NCBI GenBank assembly: GCA_003168335.1 | Contig: PMSM01000005.1 | Span: 186,001-250,000 of the forward strand | Length of the DNA: 64,000 bases | Reading direction: 5' to 3' | From: Blastocatellia bacterium | GTDB lineage: Bacteria > Acidobacteriota > Blastocatellia > Pyrinomonadales > Pyrinomonadaceae | Shown: piece by piece, positions 33,979 through 44,361 of the stretch | Layout: each line of letters opens with the position of its first letter | Numbering within the stretch: position 1 is the first letter of the stretch | Made by a program: the position numbers and the translations under genes | Notes under the pieces: model-generated | Database searches by the model: none | The model's input: the letters and a program-made list of their open reading frames with translations, nothing else | What the model was told of the DNA's origin: nothing

Positions 33979-35592
33979 CTATTCTAGATTTCCCGTGCGC
34001 GTCACATTCTTTTCGCAGTCTGGCGAAATGTGCCAAGCGCCTTTGGTGTTTCCGCTCAAGTCATTGTCCTCAAAGACACCACCGCCACCTGCGGCGATAA
34101 CGATCGCTTGATACCCATTTTTTGAAATTTTGTTACGGCGCAATCTAACATTGCTATCGTCTCGCACTTGTACACCCGCACTCTGGTTGGCGACGATCTC
34201 ATTGTCTTCCAGCGTTCCTTGGCCCTTTTCGTGCACAAAGACGCCGCTTTGCTTTCCATCGTGAATTCGATTGCGACGCAGAGTGGCATTGCCGCCAGTA
34301 TTGATTCGCACACCTGTGTTGGCGTTGGCGAAAACGTCATTGTCTTCCAGAGTTCCGAGGCCGTTTTTGTATACATGTACACCGCTGGACTTTCCATCAT
34401 AAATACGATTGTGACGAAGGGTGGGATTGCCGCCCGTCATGATGGAGACTCCGGCATTCTCGTTAGCAAAGATAGCGTTGTCCTCGAACGTCCCCTGGCC
34501 GTTATCGTAAACAAGGACACCGCTCTCCTTTCCATCGTGTATGCGGTTTCGGCGCAATCGCGGGTCTGCCCCTCCATGGATGCCGACACACGTGTAGCTC
34601 TCGCTGGTGATGTCACACCCTTCCAAGTCGAGACGTCCCTGCGCAATATCGACGGCAAACCAATCTCCTGCTCCAACCTGCTGCAGAGTGAGATTTGCAA
34701 TTCGTCCCATGTTTGCCTTGAATCGGACAACGTTTTCCCCCTTTGCCTCGATTACCACTTCGCCAAGCTCCCCATCGCCGATAATCTCAACAGGTTTATC
34801 AATCGTGACGCCTTCTCGATACAGGCCTGGCCGCATCAGAATTCTATCGCCGGGCTTCGCGGCCGCTAGCGCGGCCGTCAGTGTTGGATGATCTCCACGA
34901 TGAAGCGCATCCACAATGATAGTAGGTGGTTCGGTCTTTGCTACAGGCCCGCGCGTCGCTTCAACGGATTGGGTTTTAGATTCAAGTTGCTGAGGACTCT
35001 CTGCGGAGGCTCGTCCTTTACGCGCTGTGCTCGTCTTCCCGCGCCGAGTCTTGCCGCGCACTTTGGTAGGTTTGCGCGGCTGCTCGCGTTCAAGTGCTCC
35101 GATAATCTGCGCGCCCATTTTCGCGAGCATCTTTCCTACTTCAGGCGACGTGATAGGTTCGAAGCGCAGTTCACGCAAATCTGCATACTGACGTTCCGCG
35201 ATGATCATCGCTAACGGATCGGACTTACGCTTTTCGTCATCGTGAAGGATCGGGCAGTTGACATAATAGACGGGCAGAATCAGGTCGTTCCGTTTAAGAG
35301 TCTTTTCCCGCTTGAGAAAGCGTTCCAGTTCCGCGCGACAAGCGGGACTCTTGAAAAAACCAGGCGTAACGATCGGAATGAGAAACGTAACACCATCCAG
35401 CGAATCTTCAATGCGCTCTTTCCATTGCTGTCCCCACTGGATGTCGTTGCGATCCTGGAATATCTCGAACTTCTCGCCAGTCTGTATGCGCACCTCGCCG
35501 CTGAGACGCTTGGCAACCTCGCTTAGGCGTCCGCGCTCGTGCGCATCGTCGTCACGAACATAGCTCAGGAAACCAATTGGATGCTGACTCAT
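33979..35592 (-). CDS. TIR domain protein with right-handed parallel beta-helix
   Basis: The product has 537 residues in three parts. Residues 1-170 form a TIR domain of the TIR_2 type: IGFLSYVRDDDAHERGRLSE, FEIFQDRNDIQWGQQWKERI and FLIPIVTPGFFKSPACRAEL, with Glu88 in the position of the NADase catalytic Glu. Residues about 170-215 are a basic, low-complexity linker (RGKTRRGKTSTARKGRAS). Residues about 215-537 are a right-handed beta-helix with three near-identical units of about 46 residues (for example RRNRIHDGKESGVLVYDNGQ, repeated as RHNRIYDGKSSGVHVYKNGL). The helix resembles FBXO11/NosD or pectate-lyase-like binding domains. No signal peptide is seen, so it acts in the cytoplasm. The gene is monocistronic. 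A NAD-degrading effector triggered by a polysaccharide- or protein-binding helix is a hypothesis, not shown. Confidence 0.87.
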   Translation of the reverse strand: MSQHPIGFLSYVRDDDAHERGRLSEVAKRLSGEVRIQTGEKFEIFQDRNDIQWGQQWKERIEDSLDGVTFLIPIVTPGFFKSPACRAELERFLKREKTLKRNDLILPVYYVNCPILHDDEKRKSDPLAMIIAERQYADLRELRFEPITSPEVGKMLAKMGAQIIGALEREQPRKPTKVRGKTRRGKTSTARKGRASAESPQQLESKTQSVEATRGPVAKTEPPTIIVDALHRGDHPTLTAALAAAKPGDRILMRPGLYREGVTIDKPVEIIGDGELGEVVIEAKGENVVRFKANMGRIANLTLQQVGAGDWFAVDIAQGRLDLEGCDITSESYTCVGIHGGADPRLRRNRIHDGKESGVLVYDNGQGTFEDNAIFANENAGVSIMTGGNPTLRHNRIYDGKSSGVHVYKNGLGTLEDNDVFANANTGVRINTGGNATLRRNRIHDGKQSGVFVHEKGQGTLEDNEIVANQSAGVQVRDDSNVRLRRNKISKNGYQAIVIAAGGGGVFEDNDLSGNTKGAWHISPDCEKNVTRTGNLE

Positions 35593-39974: not shown

Positions 39975-40418
39975 AATAATCCAACCTTTTTAGAATAACG
40001 TTGCCTCAAGTCGCGGATTTCGGGCAACGTGGGTTCCCACAGTCACCCTGTCTGCCGATTTGAGGCGAGGAGATTATAGCGTAGCTGCGGCCGAACCTCG
40101 ATGCGGGAATCGAAGTCAGTACCAAGCGCGTTAGCGGGGAAGTCAGCGTCAATGAGCCGCGTAGCGGCGGCATATTGGTAGCCCCGGGCGTAAGCCCGGG
40201 GTTACGTCACGCAATTGATCCCGAGCCCGCTTTAGCGGGCAACAGATTTAATTAGCAACTACTCTAAGGCCAGCAGAAGCTTTTTCGGTTGCAACAGAAG
40301 ATTGATGGAGAAGCCCGCGCCGGCATCTCCCATGGGCTGGGTGACAGTCTTCGCTATGCGGACTAAATCGCTTGGTGGCCTTCTTGACAGCACATCCGAT
40401 TCAGTCAATGATCCGCCC
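39975..40418. repeat. Intergenic region with ccccgggcgtaagcccgggg hairpin
   Basis: The 444-bp gap upstream of PBP1A holds a perfect hairpin, tagccccgggcgtaagcccg (40179-40203 in full), of the family also found at 46344-46365 and 46484-46508. A smaller gcccgctttagcgggc hairpin follows (40225-40240). The open frame preceding the antitoxin start (40302-40418) is not convincing as coding sequence. Confidence 0.7.
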
Positions 40419-40646
40419 ATGAGCCTTGCAACCATTCGCAGCGAGATTGAAAAACTCGAGCCCGCTGAAAGGGCCTCGTTGATAGATTTGCTCTGGGACA
40501 GCATCGACGACGACTGCATTCACGAAATCGAGGCCAAGTGGGCAGCCGAATCCGAGGATCGGATTGATGCATTTGAACGAGGCGAATTAGCTGCCGTCGA
40601 TGGGCCATCAGCACTCGAAGAACTCCGCTCGTCGTTGAAGAAATGA
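40419..40646 (+). CDS. Addiction module antitoxin (PF09720-like)
   Basis: The 75-residue protein matches the putative addiction module component family: LEPAERASLIDLLWDSIDDD followed by EAKWAAESEDRIDAFERGEL and a VDGPSALEELRSSL tail. It would neutralise the ParE/RelE-like toxin encoded next, whose start overlaps its stop by 4 bp (ATGA). The start is ATG 40419. A longer open frame from 40302 exists but lacks family features. Confidence 0.83.
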   Translation: MSLATIRSEIEKLEPAERASLIDLLWDSIDDDCIHEIEAKWAAESEDRIDAFERGELAAVDGPSALEELRSSLKK

Positions 40647-40825
40647 CGAAGTACAGATTTACTTCCGCTGCGCTTTTCGAACTAAAGGAAGGCGCCCTTT
40701 ACTACGAGCAGAAAGAGAACGGCCTCGGCATTATTTTTCTTGATGAGATTGATGCCACAGTCGAACGAATCCTGCGTTTTCCGCATTGCATCCGATGCCA
40801 GTTCGGACCGCATGCCGGTCTTTAG
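40643..40825 (+). pseudogene. Truncated ParE/RelE-like toxin
   Basis: The 60-residue ORF opens like a type II toxin: YRFTSAALFELKEGALYYEQ followed by LGIIFLDEIDATVERILRFP. Family members run to about 95 residues and end in a conserved RR..FPY.I.Y block. Here the frame diverges after RFPHCIRCQ and stops, and no downstream frame restores the missing part. The toxin is probably inactive, while the overlapping antitoxin gene is intact. Confidence 0.65.
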
Positions 40826-41068
40826 TAGCCCTGCATTAATCGAGCCTACCGACGACCGCGCTGGCGCCCGTTGCACTACCAGACTGGTAACAACACATAA
40901 TAAGCGTAATGTTCTTGGGAATTTGCTCGACAGGGCACAGTTAGCCATGATAAAAGACACGTGGCTTTTCACAAGCGAGTTGTGAGTCTCAAACCTTCGC
41001 CTCCCAACTCCGATTTGGCTCCAAACCTTTTTTCGTAACTGTTAACGCAGACAATCAAAGGAGACCCA

Positions 41069-41431
41069 ATGGCCACAATGTCGCCGCTAATCCGTCCGTT
41101 CAAGGTTTCGGTCAGCATCGAACACGGCAAAGTTATGGTGTCCCCGGACCCCGCTGAGGTTGACGAAGGCACGTCCGTGGAATGGAGGTTCGAAGTAAAC
41201 CCGGGTCTTCCTTCTCTGACAATTGAGATTTATTTCTCAGGTGCATCTCCAACTGGCTGGATGAGTGAGCGAGCGATTTATTCAGAGTCTCACTCTCCAA
41301 ATCCGATTATCGGGGCGGTAGCGCAGCAGCCCGGTGATTACAAGTACGGTGTGAAGGCTAGCAATCACGAAACGAATGAAGTCATCGCCGATGATGACCC
41401 TTACCTAATAGTTCGGTCCCGGGGCTATTGA
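41069..41431 (+). CDS. Hypothetical 120-residue beta-rich protein, partner of the patatin gene
   Basis: I do not recognise a named family. The protein has no signal peptide or membrane helix. Its pattern of alternating hydrophobic strands (VSVSIEHGKVMVSPDPAEVD, SVEWRFEVNPGLPSLTIEIY, YKYGVKASNHETNEVIADDD) suggests a small Ig-like beta-sandwich. The start ATG 41069 has AAGGAG 5 nt upstream. The patatin gene starts 10 bp after its stop, so the two form an operon, and the protein may be its sensor or inhibitor. Base composition is lower in G+C than in flanking core genes. Confidence 0.7.
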   Translation: MATMSPLIRPFKVSVSIEHGKVMVSPDPAEVDEGTSVEWRFEVNPGLPSLTIEIYFSGASPTGWMSERAIYSESHSPNPIIGAVAQQPGDYKYGVKASNHETNEVIADDDPYLIVRSRGY

Positions 41432-41441
41432 AGGCACTGGA

Positions 41442-42929
41442 ATGTTCGCCATTGAAGTCCTGACAGTTTCCAAGCAGTTGCGCAAGCCGCTTCAGCTGGC
41501 TATGGATTCCCTCAATGGCCTGCAAGGTGAATTTCATTTCGCGTTTCCGCCAGGTGAATTGCTAGTTCAAGCGGAGCTGGTTAAGCGAGAGAGGTACTCG
41601 ACGACAGAAATCTTTGCCTGGCTCCGCACGTACCGTGATGACGCTAAGGGCTATCGCCCCCATTTGATCTTAGTAGTTGATGGGTTTCTGTCTTCGCCGG
41701 GCTTGGAAAATCTTTTTGGCTCGCATGAGGCGGCCGATGGGCTGGCAACTTTCACGACGCACGACAGCGGTCGATTTGTTCATGATCAGGTTCGGTACAT
41801 CCGATACTATCTCGTAAGATACAGTCTCAGTTTTCTGGCACCCGAGATTAAGAGTCACGCGGAAGCCAAGGCCTGCTTCTTTGACCGCAAGATGAGTAAG
41901 AAAGATTTGCGGCTCAGTATAGAGTCCGGCGGTATTTGTGACGCTTGCCGCTCACAGCTCACGCCGCTTTGGACGCCCACGATCAAAGATGCGATTGAGG
42001 ATATGGCAAAGCTGATTGCTGGCGATTATCCCTATGCTTTAGTAATGAAAGGTGGCGGTGTAAAAGGGTTGGCTTTTGCTGGCGCAATGCTGGAGCTCGA
42101 AGTTCACTTCACATTTGATGTTTTTGCCGGAACTTCCGCGGGATCCATTGCTGCTCTCTTATTCGCCGCAAAATATTCACCGAAGGAATTAGAGGCAGAA
42201 CTCTCCGCGCTCGATTTTCGGCGATTCAAAGATGCATCTTGGCCCAAAGCTCTATTGAATTTCGTTCGTAAGCGAGGACTCTATCCGGGTGACGCATTGA
42301 CTGAATGGATCGGTGCACGGCTCAAGAAAAAACTGTCATCCACTGCTGACGTTAGAATGGCGGATTTGCCCGCACGCGCAATCATCTATGCTTCTTCTCC
42401 GGCACTCGGCCTCTTGACCTTTGATAGCACTGGAGATCGTCGAGAGACATTAGCTGCTTTCGCCGCAAGATGTAGTGCCTCAATACCCTATTACTTCCTG
42501 CGCCAATCCGTAGATGGACAGAGTGTGTATGATGGCGGGTTGCGGGAGAACTTTCCATTTGAACAGTTTCTTCAGTCAAACAAAGGCAAGCCAACCGTTG
42601 GTCTTTATCTAATCACACCAACTAAAAGTTCCCGGTTTGTCGTTTCAGATCTAATAAACGTCGCAGCAAGTGGTGATGATCCAAACACGATTCGGACACA
42701 CGCAGACAAGATCGTGCCGATTGATCCGAGACCCATCAAAACGACAGACTTTGATTTATCGGACGACGACAAACAACTGCTGATTTCGGCGGGACGGTCG
42801 GCGGCTCAGCGCTTTCTCCTAAGTCGTAAGGTCGAGGGTGGCCCTAACGAAGTTAATGTACAAGAATCAGAAGCCAGGACAGAACAGCTGAGGGCTCAGG
42901 TCGCAAAACAGCGGCGACGCCGCTTATGA
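41442..42929 (+). CDS. Patatin-like phospholipase with extra N-terminal domain
   Basis: The product has 495 residues. The C-terminal half is a patatin hydrolase: oxyanion-loop GGGVKG at 204-209, nucleophile GTSAG with Ser232, and the catalytic Asp in YDGGL at 364. Such enzymes hydrolyse membrane phospholipids. Residues 1-190 form a separate domain of unrecognised family with an HLILVVDGFLSSPGL strand and a Cys pattern (CFFDRK at 145-150, ICDAC at 165-169), which could bind zinc. No signal peptide is seen. It is coupled to the 120-residue gene upstream. The architecture (regulatory domain fused to patatin, small partner, accessory region) recalls CBASS-type effectors, but no nucleotidyltransferase is present. 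Confidence 0.85.
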   Translation: MFAIEVLTVSKQLRKPLQLAMDSLNGLQGEFHFAFPPGELLVQAELVKRERYSTTEIFAWLRTYRDDAKGYRPHLILVVDGFLSSPGLENLFGSHEAADGLATFTTHDSGRFVHDQVRYIRYYLVRYSLSFLAPEIKSHAEAKACFFDRKMSKKDLRLSIESGGICDACRSQLTPLWTPTIKDAIEDMAKLIAGDYPYALVMKGGGVKGLAFAGAMLELEVHFTFDVFAGTSAGSIAALLFAAKYSPKELEAELSALDFRRFKDASWPKALLNFVRKRGLYPGDALTEWIGARLKKKLSSTADVRMADLPARAIIYASSPALGLLTFDSTGDRRETLAAFAARCSASIPYYFLRQSVDGQSVYDGGLRENFPFEQFLQSNKGKPTVGLYLITPTKSSRFVVSDLINVAASGDDPNTIRTHADKIVPIDPRPIKTTDFDLSDDDKQLLISAGRSAAQRFLLSRKVEGGPNEVNVQESEARTEQLRAQVAKQRRRRL

Positions 42930-43133
42930 AGTCGTTTAGGCAACCTGACATCGTGCTACGGCCTCGATACTCTAATCTGCTCCTCAAAAGCAAGCGGCCA
43001 AAAGTGGCGTGAAAGGCGAGACCGTGATAAAAAAACCGCTACGGAAGGCTAATGAAGAGCGTCACGTAGTGAATCTAATGCTGTGCGACGAGATGGTATT
43101 GGCAAGTTTTAGGATACTCATGAAAGGATGCTG

Positions 43134-43898
43134 ATGGACTGGAACCCACAGATACACGGGCAGTTGTTGCGACAGGCCCGAAGCCGCAACGGACTGACGC
43201 GGCAATCACTAGCGGAGGAACTTCATGTCACGCCTCTAAGTATCTTTAATTGGGAGACCGGCAAGAATAAACCCCAAGCTAATTCAATAAAGGCGCTAAT
43301 CGAAAAATTTGGCGCAGAAGCGTTTGATCCAGATAGATCAATAATCGAAGATGAAGGTCCTTCGGCGCTTTCAACTTGGTTAGCAGCCAAGCGTGCCGAC
43401 AAAAAGTGGAGCCGCAAAGAACTTGCACAACAAGCTGGCGTCACGGAGATGACGATTTGGAATATCGAATCTGGTCGTACTCTAAATCCACAACAAAGCA
43501 CTATCGAGAGCTTGGAATCTGCTCTGGGGGAACCGATACCCGAAGACATCGGTGTGGAACTATCGGAACAGGCTGATTTGAAGGTAGAAGGATTAGGTGC
43601 ATTTACGAATTTTGACCCGCATGATGAAGATAACTTGCCCAGCGTCGCAGGTGTGTATGTCTTGTATGACGTAAGCGACCGTCCCATTTACGTGGGCCGA
43701 GCACAAGACATCGGAAAGCGCATAAGAGATGGTCATACTGGCCATTGGGATAAATTTTGGTATCGTTCCCCAATTGTGCATTCGGGCGCTTTTGTGAGAG
43801 TGGACGACGAACTCTTGCGGTCTCAAATTGAAACAGTAATGATTAAGTTTATGAAATCAACAGCAGTAATCAATAAAAGCGGCGTAGAACGCGGCTAG
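43134..43898 (+). CDS. Double XRE-type HTH protein fused to a GIY-YIG nuclease domain
   Basis: The protein has about 254 residues. Two Cro/C1-type HTH domains come first: LRQARSRNGLTRQSLAEELH followed by VTPLSIFNWETGKNKP, and WSRKELAQQAGVTEMTIWNI. From about residue 170 a GIY-YIG-like domain follows: SVAGVYVLYDVSDRPIYVGR (GVY...YVG), an Arg in GKRIRDGH, Glu in LLRSQIETVMIKF (about 235) and Asn in VINKSG (about 249). The catalytic set looks complete. The start ATG 43134 is preferred over 43128 because AAAGGA lies 5 nt upstream. It is monocistronic, with degenerate ssrA-promoter-like sequence before it (42944-42970) and ssrA after it. Confidence 0.84.
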   Translation: MDWNPQIHGQLLRQARSRNGLTRQSLAEELHVTPLSIFNWETGKNKPQANSIKALIEKFGAEAFDPDRSIIEDEGPSALSTWLAAKRADKKWSRKELAQQAGVTEMTIWNIESGRTLNPQQSTIESLESALGEPIPEDIGVELSEQADLKVEGLGAFTNFDPHDEDNLPSVAGVYVLYDVSDRPIYVGRAQDIGKRIRDGHTGHWDKFWYRSPIVHSGAFVRVDDELLRSQIETVMIKFMKSTAVINKSGVERG

Positions 43899-43924
43899 TA
43901 GTTTTTCGCCAACCTCGCCCAACC

Positions 43925-43952
43925 TGACATCCCACCCCACATCCTCTATACT
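43925..43952 (+). promoter_or_regulatory. ssrA promoter
   Basis: CTGACA (43925-43930), a 17-nt spacer and TATACT (43948-43953) form a near-consensus sigma-70 promoter about 15 nt before the tmRNA 5' end. A degraded copy with a 15-nt spacer (CTGACA at 42944, GATACT at about 42965) lies 1 kb upstream. Confidence 0.82.
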
Positions 43953-43968
43953 CAATCCGCTCGCAAAT

Positions 43969-44361
43969 GGGGGCGACAGGCTTCGACAGGAGCCCTAACG
44001 TCCGTCGCGATGCATGCCGGGCTACCTTATGCAGCTCGTTAACAAGCGTAGGGAAAAAACAATTGCCAACTCTAACGAGTTAGCTCTCGCGGCCTAAACA
44101 GCTAGCGAGCGTCTCCGCCGCAAGTTGCTCATGCGCGCGGATGGAGATGTCACTTTAGATGAGCTGGCCTGCTGTTTCGGTCCGTGACAGTGGGCGAGAC
44201 CAAGTCGGACTAGCTCGTGTTGAGGTCTTGCTACTTCACTGACTCAGCGTCGGGCAAAACTTGTCCGGTCGAAAGGCCGGACGAAAAGAGAAGTAGATAA
44301 GCATGTAGAGTCCTTCGGCGTTGGCTTTTGGATCCGGGTTCAATTCCCGGCGCCTCCACCA
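43969..44361 (+). ncRNA. ssrA: Transfer-messenger RNA (tmRNA)
   Basis: tmRNA rescues stalled ribosomes with SmpB. The 5' end GGGGGCGACAGGCTTCGACAG pairs with the 3' acceptor strand CGCCTCC before the encoded CCA (44351-44361), and GGTTCAATTCC is the T-arm. The tag ORF is at 44065-44097 and encodes A-N-S-N-E-L-A-L-A-A followed by TAA, a canonical ending in ALAA. The length of 393 nt is typical. The gene is driven by the promoter just upstream. Confidence 0.96.

Follow-up and report, generated by a model that had tools for sequence, protein, structure and literature searches.

A candidate HTH-directed GIY-YIG nuclease with Cro/C1-type DNA-binding domains, encoded upstream of ssrA in a Blastocatellia bacterium

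What might a protein do that joins HTH domains of the XRE (Cro/C1) type to a GIY-YIG nuclease domain, and how did its gene come to lie between a patatin-type phospholipase gene and ssrA? Such a protein is encoded in the window, by which we mean the whole stretch of 64,000 nucleotides that was analyzed. Its features are as follows, with residues counted from the start at 43128.

43128 to 43898, + strand: HTH-GIY-YIG gene, a single ORF of 256 amino acids with two XRE HTH domains and a GIY-YIG domain
43158 to 43316, + strand: HTH1, residues 11 to 63 (Pfam), found only in the window's protein
43377 to 43538, + strand: HTH2, residues 84 to 137, common to all five family members found
43650 to 43883, + strand: GIY-YIG domain, residues 175 to 252, with Tyr177, Tyr188, Gly190, Arg198, Glu235, and Asn249

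The true start is likely the ATG at 43134, giving 254 amino acids and turning Glu235 into Glu233. The initial annotation had used this start, probably rightly, as a purine-rich GAAAGGA resembling a ribosome-binding site precedes it at good spacing (read by eye). A search for structured RNA upstream of the gene returned one Rfam match with an E value of 10, which was taken as chance.

The fusion of two Cro/C1 HTH domains to a GIY-YIG domain in one protein, as initially annotated, is borne out by Pfam, PHROG, hhalign, and Foldseek. Pfam HTH_3 matches the protein in two stretches (E value, 1.1e-17; bit score, 64.2 against a cut-off of 23). Residues 7 to 149 of the AlphaFold model consist of helices only, including a predicted helix directly after HTH2 (residues 139 to 149), and the reader is by both measures of the XRE type and not a winged helix. 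Pfam PF01541 stays below threshold at residues 175 to 207 (E value, 0.0027; bit score, 18.4 against 22.6), and the four relatives described below also score under this cut-off (19.5, 20.2, 15.3, and 18.0). Because all of these scores are below the curated cut-off, the GIY-YIG domain of the XRE-GIY-YIG family appears to be a divergent branch. PHROG_19235 spans residues 174 to 250 (E value, 6.9e-7), and an hhalign comparison of four family members with six UvrC-like stretches of the phylum gave 97.3% (E value, 1.8e-11), with the catalytic Glu of the family aligned to the UvrC-like Glu.

Both AlphaFold models place the elements of the domain in the beta-beta-alpha-beta-alpha order of the GIY-YIG fold. 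Model confidence is moderate (mean pLDDT, 72.5 for the whole protein and 66.6 for the GIY-YIG domain alone) and lowest in the loop after Arg198 and at the C-terminal end with Asn249. Compared with known folds, the check proposed with the initial annotation, the predicted domain alone matched the UvrC GIY-YIG domain 1yd6 in Foldseek (E value, 2.2e-4), with R.Eco29kI further down (E value, 0.10). Also among the best solved matches was the N-terminal domain of the plant glutaredoxin 2lwf, which passages of PMC8263062 describe as a GIY-YIG-type domain. Viral proteins named GIY-YIG also match, the best named one with an E value of 4.6e-4. The GIY-YIG part is absent from the structural match list for the whole model, an absence that is uninformative because HTH chains fill that list. 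Tyr177, Tyr188, Gly190, Arg198, Glu235, and Asn249 are invariant in 5/5 aligned members, so that the catalytic Tyr, Gly, Arg, Glu, and Asn named at the outset were all found retained. A His also follows Arg198 in every member (H203 or H206 in the window protein, the register being unsure as the loop varies in length). Judged from these alignments and models, the GIY-YIG assignment is real.

Although UvrC and Cho share the GIY-YIG fold and provide the best profile and fold match, the window protein ends with this domain and has none of UvrC's other domains. A UvrC paralogue was ruled out, with no UvrB-binding, EndoV-like, HhH, or Cho domain present. Among the PADLOC models, weak matches of the GIY-YIG part were to the candidate defence proteins PDC-S14 (E value, 0.0011) and UzuA (0.0034), and the strong matches (RmrA and others, 1.1e-14 downwards) cover the HTH part only, none spanning the whole protein.

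Four relatives of the window protein were found, with the following amino acid identities to it.

L026, Myxococcales: 48%
L027, Mesorhizobium qingshengii: 37%
L028, Fulvimarina: 36%
L002, plasmid of Methylobacterium bullatum: 34%

The family search suggested earlier thus recovered the pairing of HTH and GIY-YIG but not the double HTH: all four relatives have one HTH and a GIY-YIG domain in 192 to 200 amino acids (starts chosen by hand), with a longer Myxococcales N terminus formally possible, as that contig begins 147 bases before the chosen start. In the order listed, identity to the window's GIY-YIG domain is 55/93, 40/91, 41/91, and 37/91, and identity to its HTH2 is 24/51, 21/59, 20/59, and 17/55; the GIY-YIG part is the more conserved of the two. 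By Pfam cut-offs, the Myxococcales HTH passes HTH_3, that of Mesorhizobium just passes HTH_26, and those of Fulvimarina and Methylobacterium fall below.

Because all four relatives show a single HTH, HTH1 of the window protein looks like an addition. HTH1 and HTH2 are identical at 16 of 50 positions, and HTH1 aligns with the Myxococcales HTH (score, 66) about as it does with HTH2 (score, 64); from these sequences, a derivation of HTH1 from HTH2 is undecided. The top structural matches of HTH2 include the restriction-modification controller proteins C.BclI and C.AhdI (Z score, 10.3), tied with SinR, 434 Cro, and others. By analogy with the phage 434 repressor, three residues in the second turn-helix of HTH2 would face the bases. 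Lineages differ at the first two and agree at the third, Asn112, the triplet reading Glu-Met-Asn in the window protein, Phe-Val-Asn in Myxococcales, and Tyr-Thr-Asn or Tyr-Ala-Asn in the alphaproteobacteria. Such variation would fit changing targets.

The XRE-GIY-YIG family is rare in the genomes sampled. A protein search of the phylum detected it in 1 of 396 genomes, the window's own, and profile searches returned only the genome already known in the order of Mesorhizobium (1/397), the phylum of the Myxococcales genome (1/235), the genus Mesorhizobium (1/146), and the family of Fulvimarina (1/61). Within the window's own genus it was found in one of seven genomes and not in the six others, one of them 79% complete. 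A genome-wide scan with two short peptide patterns confirmed at least 3 of 264 stretches, a lower bound, and the profile search of viral contigs confirmed none of 87 stretches and none of 27. The family proteins found no relative in phage records and matched one plasmid record; weaker matches of the GIY-YIG part were obtained in 24 other plasmid records (E values up to 0.1) and one further record. This scattered distribution agrees with either horizontal spread or frequent loss. With the GIY-YIG domain alone, a search of the phylum matched 22 of 396 genomes at an E value of 1e-3, one being the window's own; 19 of the 21 others have open frames of 511 to 649 amino acids, which by their length look like UvrC.

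Several candidates were rejected as members: the two shorter hits of this search, one resembling the N-terminal part of UvrC and cut off by the end of its contig, the other a 328-amino-acid GIY-YIG protein of another kind (both by eye), as well as a viral contig (L003) and L032, which match through the HTH only. In 21 Klebsiella plasmid records, a gene is annotated as a GIY-YIG nuclease family protein; the one opened (L061 2216-3697) encodes 493 amino acids with GIY-YIG at 121 to 203 and no Pfam match before that domain.

The relatives lie in differing surroundings. In Mesorhizobium, the only case in which a family gene adjoins hsdR and hsdM, it sits between hsdR (HSDR_N, ResIII, EcoEI_R_C) and hsdM (HsdM_N) in a type I restriction operon, with stop and start codons that overlap; the operon was seen as far as the end of the contig, which falls within hsdM. 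In an Allochromatium plasmid operon, the hsdR of which has 72% DNA identity to that of Mesorhizobium over about 2.1 kb, hsdM follows hsdR immediately, with no HTH-GIY-YIG gene between them. On this one comparison, the Mesorhizobium gene would be an optional insert that keeps the coupling of the operon. The Methylobacterium plasmid gene is accompanied by umuD, a Y-family polymerase, an SOS-associated peptidase, a PD-(D/E)XK family protein, and small genes. The Fulvimarina and Myxococcales genes lie amid chromosomal-looking genes (by eye), the Myxococcales contig ending just upstream. A clear restriction locus is found in one of the five family contexts.

We propose, with a probability of roughly one half and on the strength of sequence, model, and analogy, that the window protein is a stand-alone, HTH-directed restriction-type DNA nuclease, most likely acting against invading DNA. 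Recognition of a particular sequence or mark on the DNA would fall to the XRE/Cro-type HTH domains, and cleavage near the bound site to the GIY-YIG domain at the C terminus; the relatives with a single HTH would have to act as dimers. The mode of action would be that of the wH-GIY-YIG type IV enzymes and of Odn of phage ICP1, with an XRE reader. The most likely target would be invading DNA, with the host's own DNA spared and the carrier benefiting in defence. Counted in favour of this reading are the catalytic residues kept in all five members, the better conservation of GIY-YIG than of HTH2, the UvrC-type matches, the placement between hsdR and hsdM, a HARE-HTH parallel on plasmid pDMC2 (below), the weak PDC-S14 and UzuA matches, and the sporadic presence in the genus. 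Counted against it are the strong PADLOC matches confined to the HTH part, the single restriction context among five, the moderate model confidence, and a G+C signal that is not clean. HTH-directed cutting, which the initial annotation had drawn from the double HTH, is in our assessment the best-supported reading, given relatives that keep both parts, the HARE-HTH parallel, and the wH-GIY-YIG precedent, but the double HTH does not define the family, since 4/4 relatives have one.

R.Eco29kI-type type II enzymes share the GIY-YIG catalytic residues (the fold match being weak), but have no separate XRE domain. They are accompanied by a methyltransferase. A scan of the window's non-overlapping ORFs of at least 100 amino acids found no [NDS]PP[YFWH], a motif that does not cover C5-methyltransferases. 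That no methyltransferase partner was seen with the one motif scanned, so that protection of the host has no explanation, counts against the restriction-type reading.

Other fusions offer close precedents. The wH-GIY-YIG fusions are proven restriction enzymes: in the account given in parts of PMC11037411, Ahi29725I and Apa233I, type IV enzymes, need Dam methylation and cut outside their site, Ahi29725I at 1 to 23 bases, and methyltransferase genes rarely adjoin them. Like the window protein they combine an HTH-class reader with GIY-YIG; compared by description, their reader is a winged helix sensing Gm6ATC (N6-methyladenine), in contrast to the one or two all-helical Cro/C1 domains here (PMC11037411, in part). 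Odn of ICP1 (Gp88) likewise directs a GIY-YIG-superfamily nuclease at a rival element by the DNA-binding domain of a replication protein: a RepA-like origin-binding domain is joined to T5orf172, and the rival's origin is cut, according to passages of PMC8263062. It differs from the window protein in being a phage gene with another DNA-binding domain, a T5orf172-branch nuclease, and a known target (PMC8263062, same passages). Parts of PMC7641849 predict EVE-GIY-YIG fusions to be modification-dependent enzymes, and parts of PMC9519451 report an E. coli defence system containing GIY-YIG. A Symbiobacterium thermophilum protein also has an N-terminal HTH-class module before GIY-YIG, but this is of the LuxR-type wHTH, and the protein is grouped with homing-endonuclease relatives (by description, in sections of PMC1564403).

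A parallel in layout is WP_012749578.1 of Solidesulfovibrio magneticus plasmid pDMC2, a protein of 250 amino acids known from sequence, in which an HTH precedes a GIY-YIG domain 34% identical to the window's, but HARE-HTH replaces the XRE HTH. With HARE-HTH preceding a similar GIY-YIG domain there, nuclease domains of this kind have been combined with more than one type of HTH reader. The pDMC2 nuclease has relatives in a Synechococcus phage gene (L063 2501-2995) noted as "integron gene cassette protein" and in a megaplasmid stretch of Methylorubrum extorquens AM1 without a listed gene (NC_012811.1, 809980-810258).

HTH-nuclease fusions are already known and form a class of simple, single-gene restriction systems; what would be new is an HTH-GIY-YIG nuclease type with a Cro/C1-type reader, expected to recognize plain sequence and not methylation. 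We found no description of an XRE-GIY-YIG fusion in the accessible portions of the open-licence literature, including PMC1564403, PMC10853773, PMC10688885, PMC9519451, PMC4420470, PMC8432527, PMC7641849, PMC8263062, and PMC11037411, and the readers named in those portions of PMC11037411, PMC7641849, and PMC1564403 do not include one of the Cro/C1 type. The legend of Figure 1 in PMC1564403, as far as accessible, lists HTH (unspecified) and wHTH among GIY-YIG partner domains, and an earlier sighting there is possible. If cutting proves true, a compact nuclease would be coupled to a DNA-binding fold whose rules of recognition have been studied very thoroughly, and one could learn by what means a host survives a sequence-directed nuclease of its own. 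The Mesorhizobium copy in the type I operon bears directly on an accessory role in restriction.

The surroundings of the gene in the window bear on its arrival and on the alternatives to a restriction-type nuclease.

40302 to 40825, + strand: toxin-antitoxin-like pair, Unstab_antitox and a short ParE-like ORF (below cut-off in Pfam), left edge of the variable stretch
41442 to 42929, + strand: patatin-type phospholipase, a neighbour and not a demonstrated partner
42941 to 42990, + strand: candidate for a decayed, incomplete second ssrA promoter, immediately following the patatin gene (suggestive)
43918 to 43968, + strand: intact ssrA promoter region
43969 to 44361, + strand: ssrA (tmRNA), right edge of the variable stretch

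Four genomes of the genus (the window's, G025, G1031, and G1029) carry different genes upstream of ssrA. In G1031, the antitoxin-like gene is 80% identical (59/74), DNA similarity stops within the toxin gene, and directly before ssrA lies a gene for one TIR-domain protein (TIR_2 E value, 1.1e-19; L052 10756-11931), in the place occupied in the window by a small ORF, the patatin gene, and the HTH-GIY-YIG gene. G025 and G1029 have other genes there. Two further stretches, L054 and L055, contained no tmRNA and were left out of the comparison. The stretch upstream of ssrA (40302 to 44000 in the window) is a candidate hotspot for defence-type genes, and this exchange site seems to have received defence-like genes at least twice. 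G+C content is 0.47 to 0.52 from about 40.2 to 44.4 kb, against 0.55 to 0.60 at 37.2 to 40.2 kb and mostly 0.53 to 0.63 to the right; because 36.0 to 37.5 kb also has 0.52 to 0.54, the low G+C is weak evidence of foreign origin. No functional tie of the HTH-GIY-YIG gene to ssrA was found, ssrA being the edge of the variable stretch. The ParE-like toxin ORF (40643-40825) seems broken, with 60 amino acids against 97 in G1031 (L052 10170-10463). The downstream side of ssrA varies too: ssrA and murI are separated in G1029 by roughly 3.5 kb that encode a large protein, Calx-beta-like by eye (L053 8310-11797).

The two promoter copies share 12 identical bases (CAACCTGACATC), 979 bases apart, followed by partial similarity. 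Their local alignment score of 53 was reached in none of 2,000 single-base shuffles, and the best of 1,956 other window stretches scored 42. The upstream copy can be recognized when aligned with four ssrA promoters; a short promoter profile has it as the best match outside ssrA (E value, 0.18 over the window), and two longer ssrA profiles miss it. A decayed copy at 42941 to 42990 is possible, and the similarity suggestive. If it is real, the patatin gene was formerly the direct neighbour of ssrA, in the position that the TIR gene has in G1031, and a second promoter copy arrived later together with the HTH-GIY-YIG gene.

This arrangement is what a selfish, free-standing homing-like endonuclease might leave behind, one that spreads its own gene by cutting near its lodging sites, here the ssrA promoter, and we consider this explanation unlikely, though ahead of the other alternatives. 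The gene sits between the possible decayed and the intact promoter copies, a 13-base near-repeat (12/13) flanks the Fulvimarina gene, and presence is sporadic (one genome in 146 of the Mesorhizobium genus and one in seven of the window's own). Mobility of such domains has also been considered before: sections of PMC1564403 (Dunin-Horkawicz et al.) describe an HsdR into which a GIY-YIG domain seems to have been inserted recently, and the authors of PMC4420470 entertain, in part of their text, the idea that a solitary GIY-YIG gene on a plasmid is left over from homing. However, the five members occupy five different contexts (by eye, one cut by a contig end) with no recognized shared insertion site, and Pfam found no NUMOD-type DNA-binding domains in the family at E values up to 1. 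The Fulvimarina repeat may be chance, the other three relatives have no flanking repeat, and a profile search gives the promoter copy a weak score.

A Cro/C1-type transcription regulator whose GIY-YIG would be a dimerization or ligand domain or rarely active, and which would control the Mesorhizobium restriction genes as C proteins do, strikes us as less likely again. The HTH domains resemble controller proteins, among others, HTH2 sharing the HTH fold of C.BclI, C.AhdI, and C.Esp1396I, and the Mesorhizobium gene lies inside a type I operon. To our knowledge, C proteins have no nuclease domain; the window protein has the extra GIY-YIG domain, and no restriction or modification genes were recognized beside its gene. 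It counts against this reading that C proteins are as a rule encoded ahead of, or opposite to, the genes that they control, and that a protein without a catalytic role would have no need of the catalytic residues retained in every member. A search for an operator-like inverted repeat close upstream of the window gene gave only one weak, distant pair.

Doubtful to a greater degree is an operator-directed nuclease, in which XRE domains captured from the repressors or controllers of mobile elements would guide cutting to the operators of incoming phages or plasmids, lineages retargeting it by swapping or adding HTH domains and keeping GIY-YIG.

Least probable is that the protein belongs to a defence module of several genes, together with the patatin protein and the small ORF preceding it: the genes are neighbours on one strand, the patatin protein matches CBASS-type lipases below cut-off, and the TIR protein in that place in G1031 shares a stretch of its N-terminal part (33% over 52 residues; E value, 2e-5 in a single comparison), but a 198-base gap separates patatin from the HTH-GIY-YIG gene, the possible decayed promoter copy within it suggests that the latter came in after patatin, and a patatin-like neighbour accompanies none of the four other members (by eye and annotation, the Myxococcales contig ending just upstream). 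A consensus scan found no promoter-like site in this gap. The initially annotated position, next to patatin upstream and ssrA downstream, is correct, but no link to patatin beyond adjacency was found.

The small ORF directly before patatin (41069-41431; 120 amino acids) looks like a beta-sandwich by eye; it has no Pfam, PADLOC, or NCBIfam match at E values up to 1 and one PHROG match (0.016). Within the phylum, the patatin N-terminal domain was found in 1 of 247 genomes, the window's own. It is found nearly whole (34.7% over 98%) in a Haliscomenobacter plasmid protein (L057 5986-7236), the other half of which has no Pfam match above cut-off. The patatin, TIR, and Haliscomenobacter proteins possibly represent one sensor with several effectors. 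Elsewhere in the window, a protein encoded at 33979-35592 (- strand) has a TIR-type-like beginning followed by parallel-beta-helix-like repeats (by eye).
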